From a virus: a stretch of 31,179 nucleotides of DNA. Under the pieces are notes generated by a model, which saw only the letters and a list, made by a program, of their open reading frames with translations, did not search any database and was not told where the DNA came from. The stretch is from IMG/VR virus record IMGVR_UViG_3300044729_000406, positions 1 to 31,179 of that record; one strand, 5' to 3'. Within the stretch, counting starts at the first letter, position 1. Every line of letters begins with the position of its first letter. The translations under genes were made by a program, and so were the position numbers. Of this stretch, positions 24,081 to 27,693 are shown in pieces.

Positions 24081-24248
24081 TCAATATTGTTTCCACACTA
24101 CTCTTGTTGTAAGTGATTCGTCAACTGATACCAACTCCCATCCTAGCTTTGTGTACTTTCTCCAATAGTAGATGACTTCCTCTTCATCATTAAGACAAAT
24201 ATGGAGATATTCTCGTGACCTCCTCAAGGTAATTGTCAGGAATCGCAT
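24081..24248 (-). CDS. Hypothetical protein, 55 aa
   Basis: A short frame from the ATG at 24248 (59 nt inside the preceding gene) or from a TTG at 24227 to TGA at 24081. The conserved-looking part is EEEVIYYWRKYTKLGWELVS, then VDESLTTRVVWKQY, the pattern of small beta-rich phage proteins in which a GWELV strand is followed by a W/F-x-R strand. Start position uncertain. Confidence 0.5.
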   Translation of the reverse strand: MRFLTITLRRSREYLHICLNDEEEVIYYWRKYTKLGWELVSVDESLTTRVVWKQY

Positions 24249-24675
24249 TTAGTCTTGATTTAATTCTGTTGTGCATTGCCGTTTCAAACTTCATATTGAT
24301 GTCTAAATAGTCTCCTATCATATCTCTACCGTGAATTACTGTGCTATGGTCACGGTTTAAATATAGACCGATTTTCTTTAGAGACTGATTTAGCTCTCTG
24401 TATGCAAAATAACAGAACATGGCTCTTGCAATTACATACTCACGCTTTCTTGATCGAGAGAAAAAGTCTTTAGGTATGACGTTGGACTCCTGACAAACTA
24501 TTCTCAGAAGTTCATCAAAGTTCTTGTCTACCTTTTTTGTTTTCTGCTCAGGCTTTAAAATCATTTGTCTTAGTTCTTGGATTTCTCTCTTAGCACTTTC
24601 AAGTTTGTTCTCGTAGGTGTTTTTTAAACGAGTGTGTGCTGCTTTTAATTTGATGTATTCGTATTCGTAGTTCAT
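24190..24675 (-). CDS. Stand-alone DnaA domain IV (DnaA-box-binding) protein
   Basis: A 161-residue protein. The first ~55 residues form a coiled coil (LKNTYENKLESAKREIQELR). The rest is the DNA-binding domain of the replication initiator DnaA: SRSRKREYVIARAMFCYFAY, then SLKKIGLYLNRDHSTVIHGR. The NRDHSTVIH segment matches the GRDHTTVLH signature that contacts the DnaA box. The AAA+ ATPase domain is missing. It is translated just after the DnaB-type helicase (4-nt overlap), so it may bring the helicase to DnaA-box-like sites or compete with host DnaA. The fold is clear; the role is inference. Confidence 0.8.
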   Translation of the reverse strand: MNYEYEYIKLKAAHTRLKNTYENKLESAKREIQELRQMILKPEQKTKKVDKNFDELLRIVCQESNVIPKDFFSRSRKREYVIARAMFCYFAYRELNQSLKKIGLYLNRDHSTVIHGRDMIGDYLDINMKFETAMHNRIKSRLNAIPDNYLEEVTRISPYLS

Positions 24676-25889
24676 AGTATTTCTTTATATCGTGTGTAAC
24701 GCCCTTCAAATGACATTGGCACTACTCCACATTGACCGTGTCTGTTCTTTGCAATAATTAATTCAGCGTCCATTTCAATCTCAGGTCTTGTGTCCTCGTA
24801 GTAACTTGGTCTAAATGGAAATAGAATAACGTCTGCGTCCTGCTCTAACTGACCGCTTTCTTTTAAGTCTGAAAGTGTTGGTTGTGTCTTTGCTGATTCT
24901 TCTCTTTTCAACTGAGCAAGAGCAATAATCGTGATGCCTAATTCCTTCGCTAATTGCTTTAGTCTTTTACTGGCATCACTTACCATTTCGTACCTTGTCT
25001 TTCCGTGTCCTTCAATTAACTGCAAATAGTCAAGTACAACGACATCTAAACCAAACTTTACTTTATGCAATCTTATCTGTGCGGTAATGTGGTCTATTTT
25101 TCTATTATTAGCGTCTATGATGTGAAAATCTTTACCAAGTGTATACATCTGTGTAGAAATGCGTTCAATGTCCTGTAATGTCATAGATGCGTTTCTGATT
25201 TTATAGTTTTCAATCTGAGCAAAATAACTTATGTATCTCTGTGCTAATTCTTCTTTGCTCATTTCAATAGTGTATAATAAAACATTTGCCCATTTGCAGC
25301 AGTCGACTGAGAGAGATAAGCCTAATGCAGTTTTACCCATACCAGGTCGACCACCGACAATAATTAGGTTTCCTTTGTGATAACCACCAATAAACTTGTC
25401 TAAGTATCTCCACCCTGTGCTTATGCCTTGCAAATTTGTTCCCTGTTCAACTGCCTTTGTAATTACGTCTAACACACCACCTGCAACCTGACTAATTGTA
25501 TAAGAACGGTCTAAAACTGATATGCGTGAACGCTCTAAAATCTCCATTAATTCATTCTGTATAATATCAATGGGTTTGCGTTCATCAATGGTCATGATGC
25601 CATCGATTAATATTTTCTTTTTGTAGTCAAGTTCTAAAATAAGTAAATCTCTTTCTATTGATTTGTCAGAACAAAGAGCGGTAAATATTTGAGATAATTC
25701 AAATGCTTTTGTTGGAAACATCTTGTAAAGTGCATTTACAGATATAACGGTGTTTGAATGGTACATATCTTTCATTGCTCTCATAATGTCTTTATGAAAG
25801 CCTGAGAACCATTCAGGATCTGTTTTACCGATGAACGCCTTTGCGTAATCCGTCTGCATCATTGCAGATATCACATTTATTTCAATCAT
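24672..25889 (-). CDS. dnaB: Replicative DNA helicase, DnaB type
   Basis: A 405-residue hexameric 5'-3' helicase with the RecA-type core: GGRPGMGKT (Walker A, residues ~179-187), YTIEMSKEE, VVVLDYLQLI (Walker B, ~283-292), IIALAQLKREE (motif with sensor Gln) and AKNRHGQCG (arginine-finger region, ~380-389). The N-terminal primase-interacting domain is shorter than in bacterial DnaB (usually ~450-470 residues in total). It begins 8 nt inside the initiator gene, an arrangement like lambda O-P or other initiator-helicase pairs. Confidence 0.92.
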   Translation of the reverse strand: MIEINVISAMMQTDYAKAFIGKTDPEWFSGFHKDIMRAMKDMYHSNTVISVNALYKMFPTKAFELSQIFTALCSDKSIERDLLILELDYKKKILIDGIMTIDERKPIDIIQNELMEILERSRISVLDRSYTISQVAGGVLDVITKAVEQGTNLQGISTGWRYLDKFIGGYHKGNLIIVGGRPGMGKTALGLSLSVDCCKWANVLLYTIEMSKEELAQRYISYFAQIENYKIRNASMTLQDIERISTQMYTLGKDFHIIDANNRKIDHITAQIRLHKVKFGLDVVVLDYLQLIEGHGKTRYEMVSDASKRLKQLAKELGITIIALAQLKREESAKTQPTLSDLKESGQLEQDADVILFPFRPSYYEDTRPEIEMDAELIIAKNRHGQCGVVPMSFEGRYTRYKEIL

Positions 25890-26547
25890 TTAAATTAAGT
25901 TTAGAGTAAGACTTAGATACTGTTTCAATTTGTTTTGACTTATAAGGCAATTCGTCTTGCCACTTTTTTAGATTTATATATTTTTCAAAATAAGGTAAAA
26001 ATTGTAACTTATCATTATCTATATGATTTTTAACGTATAAAGGTAAATGTTCTTCAATTGCCTCAATAGTCTTCTTCGATAGTTTTTTAAACCTATCTAA
26101 TGATGTTTGCTTTGTACCTCTTTTTGTATATGTATCCCAAAGTTTTTCAAACCTTTCTATTATACTATTATTATTATTTGTATTACTATAATTATTACTG
26201 TCGCAATTTTGCGGTGAGGGGTAGTCGCAATCCTGCGGTGAGGGTATACGCATTTCTGCGGTAGGGTTCATTGTGTCAACTACAAATATCTTTCTGCTTA
26301 CAATTTCATTTTTATCATTCCTGGTAATAACTCTTCTTATAAGTTGTTTTGATTCTAAAAATGTTAAATCTCTTTGCAATGAATCAACTGAACACTTTAA
26401 TATTTCAGATAGTGTTTTATTACTTGCATAGCAATAACCTTCACGCTTAGACATACCATTTAACACACCAAGCAAAATTGCTTGTCTATGCGTAGTCTTG
26501 TCTAAAATAAAAGTTTGAAATATTACGAATTTACCTGCTGAGTCCAT
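25882..26547 (-). CDS. Replication initiator-like protein with embedded origin
   Basis: A 221-residue protein. The N-terminal half is a winged helix-turn-helix (LLGVLNGMSKREGYCYASNK, then LSEILKCSVDSLQRDLTFLE and LIRRVI), like RepA_N/HTH_36 initiators. A low-complexity middle (residues ~92-128, Asn-, Ser-, Pro-rich) is encoded by the iteron and AT-rich region, and the C-terminal helices (TSLDRFKKLSKKTIEAIEEH, FLPYFEKYINLKKWQDEL) resemble a DnaD-like helicase-loading part. Position directly before the helicase supports a lambda O-like role: bind iterons, melt DNA, recruit helicase. Start overlaps the preceding gene by 25 nt. Confidence 0.75.
   Translation of the reverse strand: MDSAGKFVIFQTFILDKTTHRQAILLGVLNGMSKREGYCYASNKTLSEILKCSVDSLQRDLTFLESKQLIRRVITRNDKNEIVSRKIFVVDTMNPTAEMRIPSPQDCDYPSPQNCDSNNYSNTNNNNSIIERFEKLWDTYTKRGTKQTSLDRFKKLSKKTIEAIEEHLPLYVKNHIDNDKLQFLPYFEKYINLKKWQDELPYKSKQIETVSKSYSKLNLND
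26158..26266. other. Candidate replication origin: three iterons plus AT-rich tract within the initiator gene
   Basis: Iteron cores GCGGTGAGGG at 26211-26220 and 26235-26244 and GCGGTAGGG at 26258-26266 are each preceded by CGCA-N4-TGCG palindromes at 26202-26213, 26226-26237 and 26249-26260. Palindrome spacing is 24 and 23 bases. Directly next to them, 26158-26200 is almost purely A and T and could melt. Iterons plus an AT-rich element in the initiator gene is the lambda ori arrangement. Confidence 0.65.
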
Positions 26548-26726
26548 AAAGCTGATTTTATTTCATTAATGTTTTCAGGAGTACCCCAATATTTACCTGA
26601 GATATGCTCAATGTAATGATCAAATTCTTCAACGTAAAAGTAATACTCTGTTAAAAATTCACCGTTTTTGTAAAGGTCAATTACTACTTCATTGCCTTCA
26701 ATTCTTGTTTGTGTTTTAAAATTCAT
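26523..26726 (-). CDS. Hypothetical protein, 67 aa, first gene of the replication operon
   Basis: Starts MNFKTQTRIEGNEVVIDLYK, a small beta protein with aromatic strands (FLTEYYFYVEEFDHYIEHIS) and a C-terminal helix NEIKSALWTQQVNS. I prefer the ATG at 26726, since the ATG at 26744 lies inside the terminator hairpin of the upstream RNA. The end overlaps the initiator start by 25 nt. Translation would begin a few bases after the U-tract, so expression may depend on read-through from the RNA leader. Confidence 0.55.
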   Translation of the reverse strand: MNFKTQTRIEGNEVVIDLYKNGEFLTEYYFYVEEFDHYIEHISGKYWGTPENINEIKSALWTQQVNS

Positions 26727-26730
26727 TGCA

Positions 26731-26878
26731 TAAAAAAAGCCCATCAGATTTACGGTAGTGAAGGTACGCGTAAACCCAACAGGCTAATATCTTTTTAACT
26801 TTTGGAATCCTTCACATTCCAGTTAGTTGCTATTTTAACAGAGAGGCAGCAGGTGTTGTTACTACCCCTCTGATTTGG
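26731..26878 (-). ncRNA. Structured RNA (~147 nt) with complementary hairpin loops and terminator
   Basis: Predicted from direct pairing on the minus strand. P1: 26839-26851 with 26860-26872, 13 bp with three G-U pairs, loop ACAACACC. P2: 26797-26825, GGAAU/AUUCC plus UAACU/AGUUA around a 3-nt bulge, loop GUGAAGG. P3: 26738-26785, AGCC/GGCU, seven wobble-rich pairs, then UUUACG-GUA/UAC-CGUAAA with one bulge, loop CCUUCAC, then a run of U. P3 is thus a terminator. Loops 2 and 3 are perfect 7-nt complements. A promoter lies just upstream. It may be a free small RNA or a leader controlling the replication genes. I know no family for it. Confidence 0.75.
26732..26785 (-). terminator. Terminator hairpin (P3) at the end of the structured RNA
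   Basis: About 20 base pairs, many of them G-U, closing with AGCC/GGCU and followed by six T on the minus strand. Its 7-nt loop pairs with the loop of the hairpin just upstream, which could change termination. The next coding start is 5 bases beyond the U-tract. Confidence 0.65.
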
Positions 26879-26884
26879 TGTATG

Positions 26885-26913
26885 CAAATATAAACTAAAT
26901 TTCGGGATTTTCC
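26885..26913 (-). promoter_or_regulatory. Bacteroidota-type promoter for the structured RNA
   Basis: Minus strand TATATTTG at 26892-26885 matches TAnnTTTG, with a TTG about 20 bases upstream (TTGG at 26915-26912). The start would be about 7 bases downstream, near 26878, just before hairpin P1. The promoter overlaps the end of the upstream gene (stop at 26895). Confidence 0.65.
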
Positions 26914-27107
26914 AACTGAATAAATCCAGTATGTCTATTACTTCCCATTTCTTTTAAAAATTGCACTTCTACTTTTGCGGAGTTAATGATTACCTGTGCA
27001 ACGTCGCTAATTGCTCTTGCCTTCTCTATTTCCATGTCTCCGTCTTTAAGCATTTCAATAGTTTCAAATAGATGGTGTCTCAGGTCTTGAATTTTGTCTT
27101 TTGCCAT
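26895..27107 (-). CDS. Conserved phage protein, 70 aa
   Basis: Begins MAKDKIQDLRHHLFETIEML, followed by DGDMEIEKARAISDVAQVII. Two helices with this sequence pattern form a phage protein family found well beyond Bacteroidota, function unknown. It starts 44 nt inside the HNH gene and the RNA promoter lies at its 3' end. If the HNH gene is a mobile intruder, this is the gene it invaded next to. Confidence 0.7.
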   Translation of the reverse strand: MAKDKIQDLRHHLFETIEMLKDGDMEIEKARAISDVAQVIINSAKVEVQFLKEMGSNRHTGFIQLENPEI

Positions 27108-27693
27108 GTTCTGTTATAATTCTTGTTATGTTCTTTTTTAAATGTATTACTTCCTGTAATTCCTCAGGTAAATGTACCCAGTGATTGCGTTGCATATGCT
27201 CCTGACGTGAAATTAATTTTAGATTTGAGATATCCAAGTTCTTTGGATTTCGGTCTAAAAATATAACCACTTCGTAAGGATCTAATTTAACGCCGTAATG
27301 TTCTTCGTATATAATTCTATGCTTAGGTCTATACTTGCCGTTGTGCTTTATTTCAATATATCCGTCTTTTGAAATTCTTTCTGTTCCTTCGGGCGTCCAA
27401 TTGTGAGGTTTATGACCTTTTGGGAACTGAGTTTCTTTGCCACCTATTTGAATGCCTTTTTTACCTTTGTTCCAGCTTGTCATACCCTTTTTAAATTGAG
27501 TAGGTATATTTGGCTTCACATTGTAGCAATGCGCTTTCTTATACTCCTCTGAACGTGCTATATTGTAACGTTGAGCAGCACAGTAAACAACGTGTCTTTT
27601 TGTTCCAAAGAATTGACAAATTTGGTCAATGTCAGTAGCAACATATAACTCTCTAAGTTTATCAATTTTCTCTGGTGTCCACCGAAATCTCAT
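27064..27693 (-). CDS. HNH homing-type endonuclease with N-terminal helix-turn-helix
   Basis: A 209-residue protein. Residues ~5-45 form a Myb/HTH-like DNA-binding helix set (WTPEKIDKLRELYVATDID). Then come NUMOD-like glycine/lysine motifs (FKKGMTSWNKGKKG and TQFPKGHKPHN) and the HNH_3 core (KHRIIYEEHYG, VVIFLDRNPKNLDISNLKLI) with the catalytic His in KHRI and the Asn residues of NPKNLDISN. Such enzymes spread by cutting cognate DNA lacking them. It overlaps both neighbours (32 and 44 nt). No intron structure is visible, so it appears free-standing. Confidence 0.85.
   Translation of the reverse strand: MRFRWTPEKIDKLRELYVATDIDQICQFFGTKRHVVYCAAQRYNIARSEEYKKAHCYNVKPNIPTQFKKGMTSWNKGKKGIQIGGKETQFPKGHKPHNWTPEGTERISKDGYIEIKHNGKYRPKHRIIYEEHYGVKLDPYEVVIFLDRNPKNLDISNLKLISRQEHMQRNHWVHLPEELQEVIHLKKNITRIITEHGKRQNSRPETPSI

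Follow-up and report, generated by a model that had tools for sequence, protein, structure and literature searches.

The window analysed here is the whole of an IMG/VR virus record of 31,179 bases, and the element under study occupies positions 26892-26731 of its minus strand. The first gene past the element is a 67-aa ORF (26523..26726, minus strand) that belongs to cluster c7 (14 relatives) and has no Pfam or PHROG match. It is followed by a RepO/DnaD-like replication initiator (25882..26547, minus strand; phrog_270 and HTH_36), a DnaB-like replicative helicase (24672..25889, minus strand; family matches) and, behind the DnaB gene, an ORF (24190-24675) with the C-terminal DNA-binding domain of DnaA (Bac_DnaA_C, 9.4e-18). 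A first-pass annotation of this DNA had placed the start of the replication genes 5 bases beyond the RNA; an ORF does start there, at 26726, but it is the 67-aa ORF that matched no family, the start of the RepO-like initiator being at 26547. Just upstream of the RNA lies a 70-aa ORF (26895-27107) matching phrog_2044, whose label, 'RNA polymerase beta subunit', looks doubtful for a protein so small; no such RNA was found near the homologues of this ORF in L087-L113. The gene for an HNH endonuclease (27064-27693), two genes upstream of the RNA, is retained in many relatives (cluster c5).

Read along the minus strand, the element consists of the promoter box TATATTTG, hairpin 1, hairpin 2, an A-rich linker, hairpin 3 and a U7 tract. 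The box (26885..26892) is the -7 element of a Bacteroidota-type promoter of the form TTG-N20-TATATTTG, in which sequence inspection and a promoter scan placed the -33 element TTG at 26913..26915 of the minus strand, 20 nt upstream. This bears out the earlier claim that the RNA has its own TAnnTTTG promoter. The fold also agreed with the three hairpins described before, with one addition. Hairpin 1 (26839..26872, minus strand) has 13 bp and an 8-nt loop. Hairpin 2 (26797..26824, minus strand) closes loop 2, GUGAAGG (26815-26809), with the inner stem GGAAU/AUUCC; its stem and loop were as annotated, but the description was incomplete, as a 3-nt 3' bulge and an outer stem, AACU/AGUU, lie below. 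The linker AAAAAGAUAUUA (26785..26796, minus strand) falls in highly conserved columns of alignment A1, a MAFFT alignment of 35 relatives. Hairpin 3 (26739..26784, minus strand), supported by fold and co-variation, is a terminator stem of about 20 bp, interrupted by a bulge three pairs down from the loop; it closes loop 3, CCUUCAC (26764-26758), and is followed by the U7 tract (26732..26738, minus strand). Loops 2 and 3, both of 7 nt, are exact complements, and the loop-containing 9-mers TGTGAAGGA and ACCTTCACT have no second occurrence in the window.

The 162-nt minus-strand RNA had a folding energy of -51.8 kcal/mol, compared with a mean of -32.5 kcal/mol (sd 3.35) for 200 dinucleotide shuffles; the resulting z-score was -5.75, and none of the 200 shuffles reached the energy of the native sequence. 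For positions 26731-26884, the minus strand gave -50.6 kcal/mol and the opposite strand only -33.2 kcal/mol, in line with the earlier proposal that the minus-strand RNA is the folded molecule. The same annotation recognised no described family, and a search of the window against Rfam 15 likewise yielded no family at its gathering score; a lax threshold gave two weak matches only, both under their gathering scores. In relatives the linker (26785-26796 in the window) often reads GATATTTG, one base off TAnnTTTG; the window has GATATTAG, and the motif is not universal. Interpretation of GATATTTG as a second promoter was rejected, since the motif lacks conservation.

Relatives were sought via the RepO-like initiator and the 70-aa neighbour protein, via a terminator-end pattern and via a linker-plus-terminator pattern. 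These searches yielded about 300 loci (L002-L300), with several contigs recurring, and after merging, a scanner found the layout with complementary loops in about 89 distinct RNAs from viral contigs. The scanner itself demands loop complementarity; the linker-plus-terminator pattern does not and thus provides an unbiased check. Each pattern match without a scanner match was inspected, and none proved to be a true member with unpaired loops: the true members either paired fully, as in L256, whose 5' end is missing from the sequence, or carried a single G-U wobble (GUGGGAG with CUUCCAC, in the L283/L287/L289 group), and the other matches were unrelated sequence. A DNA similarity search with the window RNA against phage records gave no match, because loops and stems diverge. 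None of 16 pattern matches in genome contigs, as candidate prophage copies, folded as the element; none was found in 397 Flavobacteriaceae genomes, which says little, as only about 10 candidates were scored per genome; and plasmids gave no match by DNA or by protein. A match in AG-341-P01 (L319) was attributed to chance, and no such RNA lay just upstream of the related initiator in a Vibrio phage (L332). Searching whole records with a covariance model, we found one copy in each of eight virus records.

As evident from alignment A1, the two loops changed together. RNAalifold, which considers nested structures only, picked the 7-bp loop-loop helix as the consensus unprompted. All 245 of the 245 loop-loop cells in the 35 aligned relatives were Watson-Crick paired (100%), and compensatory changes were present in 7/7 pairs with 0 one-sided changes; chance is excluded by this pairing, compensated at every pair. 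In the same alignment, 95% of the inner-stem cells and 82% of the outer-stem cells of hairpin 2 were paired, with compensatory changes, as were 82% of those of hairpin 3, and the stems co-varied as RNA, G-U pairs included. Scored with the pseudoknot, the co-variation of the whole structure was 0.468, against 0.200 for shuffled and at most 0.128 for slid versions. The relatives retain the layout of the first-pass annotation, and loops 2 and 3 change jointly and never independently, the single G-U group (L283/L287/L289) being the sole imperfection.

At least 29 loop pairs were present over all relatives, cultured phages included. The mean duplex energy was -9.2 kcal/mol for cognate and -2.2 kcal/mol for non-cognate pairs; 97% of the non-cognate combinations were weaker by more than 2 kcal/mol, and 2.6% came within 2 kcal/mol of the cognate pair. 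The loops tested were complementary to their partner loop and mostly not to themselves. Because this code varies from phage to phage with both loops always changing together, we consider the pairing of loop 2 with loop 3 functional, and its role is most likely control over the amount of replication operon made. In pairs of RNAs that were 5-10% divergent outside the loops, the per-site difference was 0.152 in loops, about 0.05 in stems, 0.078 in the linker and 0.207 in the 5' spacer. The loops of close pairs thus changed at about three times the stem rate, always remaining complementary, yet no faster than the unstructured 5' spacer. This is suggestive of diversifying selection on the loops but does not prove it, and loops could drift likewise under purely cis pairing.

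Comparison of the relatives revealed a common core with some variable parts. TAnnTT[TC]G was present upstream of hairpin 2 in 88/89 relatives, mostly 15-20 nt before loop 2 and 69-74 nt before it where hairpin 1 was inserted, and TTG was found in the -33 zone of 65/89. Hairpin 1, which the earlier reading had treated as part of the layout, is present in the window but is an optional insertion, missing from L060, L128, L203 and most relatives; given the distance from the box to loop 2, transcription in relatives without it should begin at the foot of hairpin 2. Where hairpin 1 (26839-26872 in the window) recurs, in a subset of relatives, it has similar loop cores, CAACACCU and CUGCACCU. The outer stem of hairpin 2, below a bulge of 3-4 nt, reads UUAAC/GUUAA in many relatives and shows compensatory changes in others. 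A subtype (L119, L120, L123) has an extra hairpin in the linker between hairpins 2 and 3, and its loops AGUGGAC, GUGCAAG and GUAGACA are each perfectly matched. A TAnnTTTG box for an antisense promoter occurred within a 350-nt region in only 20/89 relatives and is not a conserved feature.

The loops are spaced 45 to 51 nt apart in the core family and more elsewhere. From the inner stem of hairpin 2 to hairpin 3 the core family has 14-19 nt, compared with about 13 nt needed around a coaxial kiss in cis. By this crude geometry, the linker length accommodates a cis kiss in 95/96 RNAs, and in 20/96 with the outer stem of hairpin 2 closed. The model suggests, without proving, that the cis kiss and the closed outer stem may be mutually exclusive, that is, two states of the RNA.

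The genomic position of the element was also retained. In the core family, the RNA almost always lies directly upstream of initiator cluster c0, or upstream of a small ORF (for example c7, as in the window) and then c0, and behind c0 comes DnaB cluster c1 or else c9. The distance from the U-tract to the ORF is mostly 0-6 nt in relatives. Several kinds of initiator stand behind the element across relatives; in L258 the place of the initiator is taken by what we presume, from a reading of the sequence without a family search, to be a VirE/primase-like protein. In the relatives' contexts the neighbours were replication genes, and no linkage of the element to packaging genes was seen. In nearly all core-family relatives the RNA is placed where a leader controlling read-through into the replication genes would be expected, in agreement with the earlier suggestion.

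Given the observed fold, loop-loop co-variation, promoter and terminator sequences and position, we lean towards the view that the element forms the leader of the replication operon in these phages and is constructed as a transcription attenuator, in which a hypothetical trans step may be embedded. Attenuation itself is suggested by the position. Transcription would start just downstream of the TAnnTTTG box, at the foot of hairpin 2 where hairpin 1 is absent. Hairpin 2 would fold first and then hairpin 3, the predicted intrinsic terminator, whose U-tract runs into the next start codon. Most transcripts would stop at hairpin 3, leaving a stable RNA of 95-150 nt, and the replication genes would be reached by read-through past hairpin 3. 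The gap from terminator to start codon is too short to hold a promoter, so these genes should depend on such read-through, and hairpin 3 would therefore be an attenuator. Upstream operons could be a further source of read-through, and the promoter of the element need not be the sole one. In cis, loop 2 may catch the emerging loop-3 sequence, shifting the balance of termination and read-through. Terminated copies carry these two loops as well and might, in trans, occupy the loops of another transcript of their type while it is being made; this action, like the direction in which loop pairing moves termination, is conjectural. Such an RNA would serve as an antisense to itself, encoded on the same strand. 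It could sense how many genomes or transcripts are present and act as a type marker between co-infecting phages. As a tentative proposal, which we hold to be possible and somewhat doubtful, such a same-strand 'self-antisense' code would let the finished leader bind nascent copies with the same loops and thereby govern termination ahead of the replication genes. A phage could in this way count its own genomes and block replication of any co-infecting phage with its loop type. If true, plasmid incompatibility groups would have their phage equivalent in the loop types, of which there are at least 29, largely orthogonal.

Other explanations can be given for the same observations. The loop-loop pair might be purely a structural aid in cis that stabilises or speeds the terminator, with neutral compensated drift and no action in trans. 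The linker, which just permits a cis kiss in 95/96 RNAs, and loops that are no faster than the free 5' spacer agree with such an aid; a 20-bp terminator with U7 requires no such help, however, and the pairing in A1, strictly Watson-Crick and with no G-U intermediates, exceeds what a stability aid needs, so that we find this unlikely. Quite unlikely, in our estimate, is an independent small RNA with host or phage mRNA as its targets in trans; the kissing would then serve for folding or loop protection, and the replication neighbours would be incidental. Its own promoter, strong terminator and stable fold would suit that role, but many lineages with different initiator types retain it immediately in front of replication genes, the 9-mers around the loops are single in the window, and a fixed external target is improbable because the loop sequences change freely.

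The mutual complementarity of loops that, in those tested, mostly do not match themselves, and the steric difficulty of a cis kiss with the outer stem of hairpin 2 closed, would also be expected of a multimerising RNA joined by intermolecular contacts of loop 2 with loop 3, such as a phi29 pRNA-like RNA or a GOLLD/ROOL-like RNA-only complex. We judge this very unlikely for a small and simple RNA that stands in single copy upstream of replication genes, unlinked to packaging genes, with a linker length that suits the cis kiss. Finally, inverted repeats acting at the DNA level, such as half-sites bound by the initiator or a portion of an origin, might happen to sit in hairpin loops; they would equally give strict Watson-Crick complementarity, and the initiator gene adjoins the element. 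This appears extremely improbable, as every relative has its complementary 7-mers placed as the loops of two hairpins, the stems co-vary as RNA with G-U pairs, one group has G-U in the loop pair itself, and the distance between the 7-mers is not fixed, with a spread of 45-51 nt in the core family and more outside it.

We compared the proposed attenuator leader with known RNA systems. The pRNA of phi29 contains a pair of complementary loops whose sequences co-vary from phage to phage; it serves the packaging motor by intermolecular pairing and contains a three-way junction. The present element resembles it in that a single RNA has two loops that match and co-vary with each other, but lies beside replication genes and is unlinked to DNA packaging. 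In ColE1, 7-nt complementary kissing loops of RNAI and RNAII set replication specificity; those RNAs come from opposite strands and control a primer, whereas here one RNA precedes a protein initiator and no antisense promoter is conserved. The CI RNA of satellite P4 and the c4 RNA of P1 are small phage RNAs that control transcription termination before replication or antirepressor genes; they are enterobacterial and act on separate complementary sites, with no kissing of a terminator loop. We know of no kissing loops or loop code in IsrK of Salmonella. IsrK of prophage Gifsy-1 is described as having two isoforms and being both a small RNA and an mRNA (PMC4825925).

The pT181 attenuator and the IncI-type rep leaders are, by analogy, the closest known working principles. 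In pT181-type attenuators, the leader before the replication initiator gene has a terminator and, ahead of it on the promoter side, a hairpin whose loop recognises an RNA by kissing; such hairpins are interrupted below the loop by an interior loop or a bulge (PMC3753616). The element likewise has a terminator in the leader of an initiator gene (hairpin 3 with U7, in most relatives ending 0-6 nt short of the following ORF) and bulges below the loops of hairpins 2 and 3. In contrast to pT181, where the antisense RNA comes from the opposite strand, it lacks a conserved antisense promoter, and the complement of loop 2 is the terminator loop of the same transcript. In IncI, IncB and IncK plasmids, stem-loop pairing occurs upstream of the rep gene (ColIb-P9 RepZ pseudoknot, RNAI), and few loop changes set the incompatibility type, the RNAI of IncK1 and IncK2 being five nucleotides apart (PMC10724649). 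The long-range loop pairing upstream of an initiator gene is similar to the IncI/IncB RepZ pseudoknot; unlike this translational control of plasmids by antisense RNAI, the element occurs in phages and its partner loop is in an intrinsic terminator. It is a member of neither the pT181 nor the IncI class, as a promoter for the defining antisense transcript was sought and none was conserved. Open-access literature on kissing loops, terminators, Bacteroidota phages, structured RNAs and related RNAs of replication control or immunity contained no description of the element, and its novelty is likely, not certain. Kissing-loop control of replication, known from plasmids, would here be found in phages, on one strand and with a terminator loop as partner. 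If the trans step is right, phage replication types would be defined by RNA, and superinfection control by RNA would be directly testable in Flavobacterium phages. The roughly 29 natural, mostly orthogonal kissing pairs joined to terminators are also a resource for RNA engineering.

The element spans many Bacteroidota phage lineages, including cultured ones: it was found in Elemovirus, Lillamyvirus, Muminvirus, Hattifnattvirus, Olleya phage Harreka_1, Flavobacterium phages 11b and FCL-2, Polaribacter phage P12002L and Cellulophaga phages phi13:2 and phi19:3, where it precedes annotated or inferred replication genes. The control for the intergenic scan that gave the P12002L and FCL-2 copies had 4 matches in 1.02 Mb of Markov sequence on one strand, and lone matches outside pre-gene gaps were not counted. 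B124-14, P12024S, phi39:1 and RAP44 had no convincing intergenic match; the RAP44 rows and a second FCL-2 row were set aside as being at the chance rate of the scan. Elemovirus 13-1A has the loops GUGAGAUG/CAUCUCAC, and elemoA 7-9A and elemoD 13-5B have UGAGAGC/GCUCUCA; the difference between 13-1A and 7-9A gives the single species elemoA two versions of the loop code among isolates of one host. The loops are GUGGUGG/CCACCAC in Harreka_1 and CGGGCAGG/CCUGCCCG in 11b. One or two small ORFs separate the RNA from the initiator in the elemo, Harreka_1 and Moomin phages. In P12002L (GGUCGUAG/CUACGACC) the element occupies the gap before the primosomal protein gene, and in FCL-2 (CAUCCAC/GUGGAUG) the gap before gp54, a gene without annotated function. 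Lillamy-, Mumin- and Hattifnattvirus have the common loops GUGAGACG/CGUCUCAC. The RNA region is identical across these three genera (L323-L328), and this identity of sequence suggests recent exchange of the replication module. We also observed reversed polarity, with a pyrimidine-rich first loop and a purine-rich terminator loop, in phi13:2 and phi19:3 (CUCUCACAA/UUGUGAGAG), in which hairpin 2 is less clear, and in FCL-2 (L329, L330, L338:37475).
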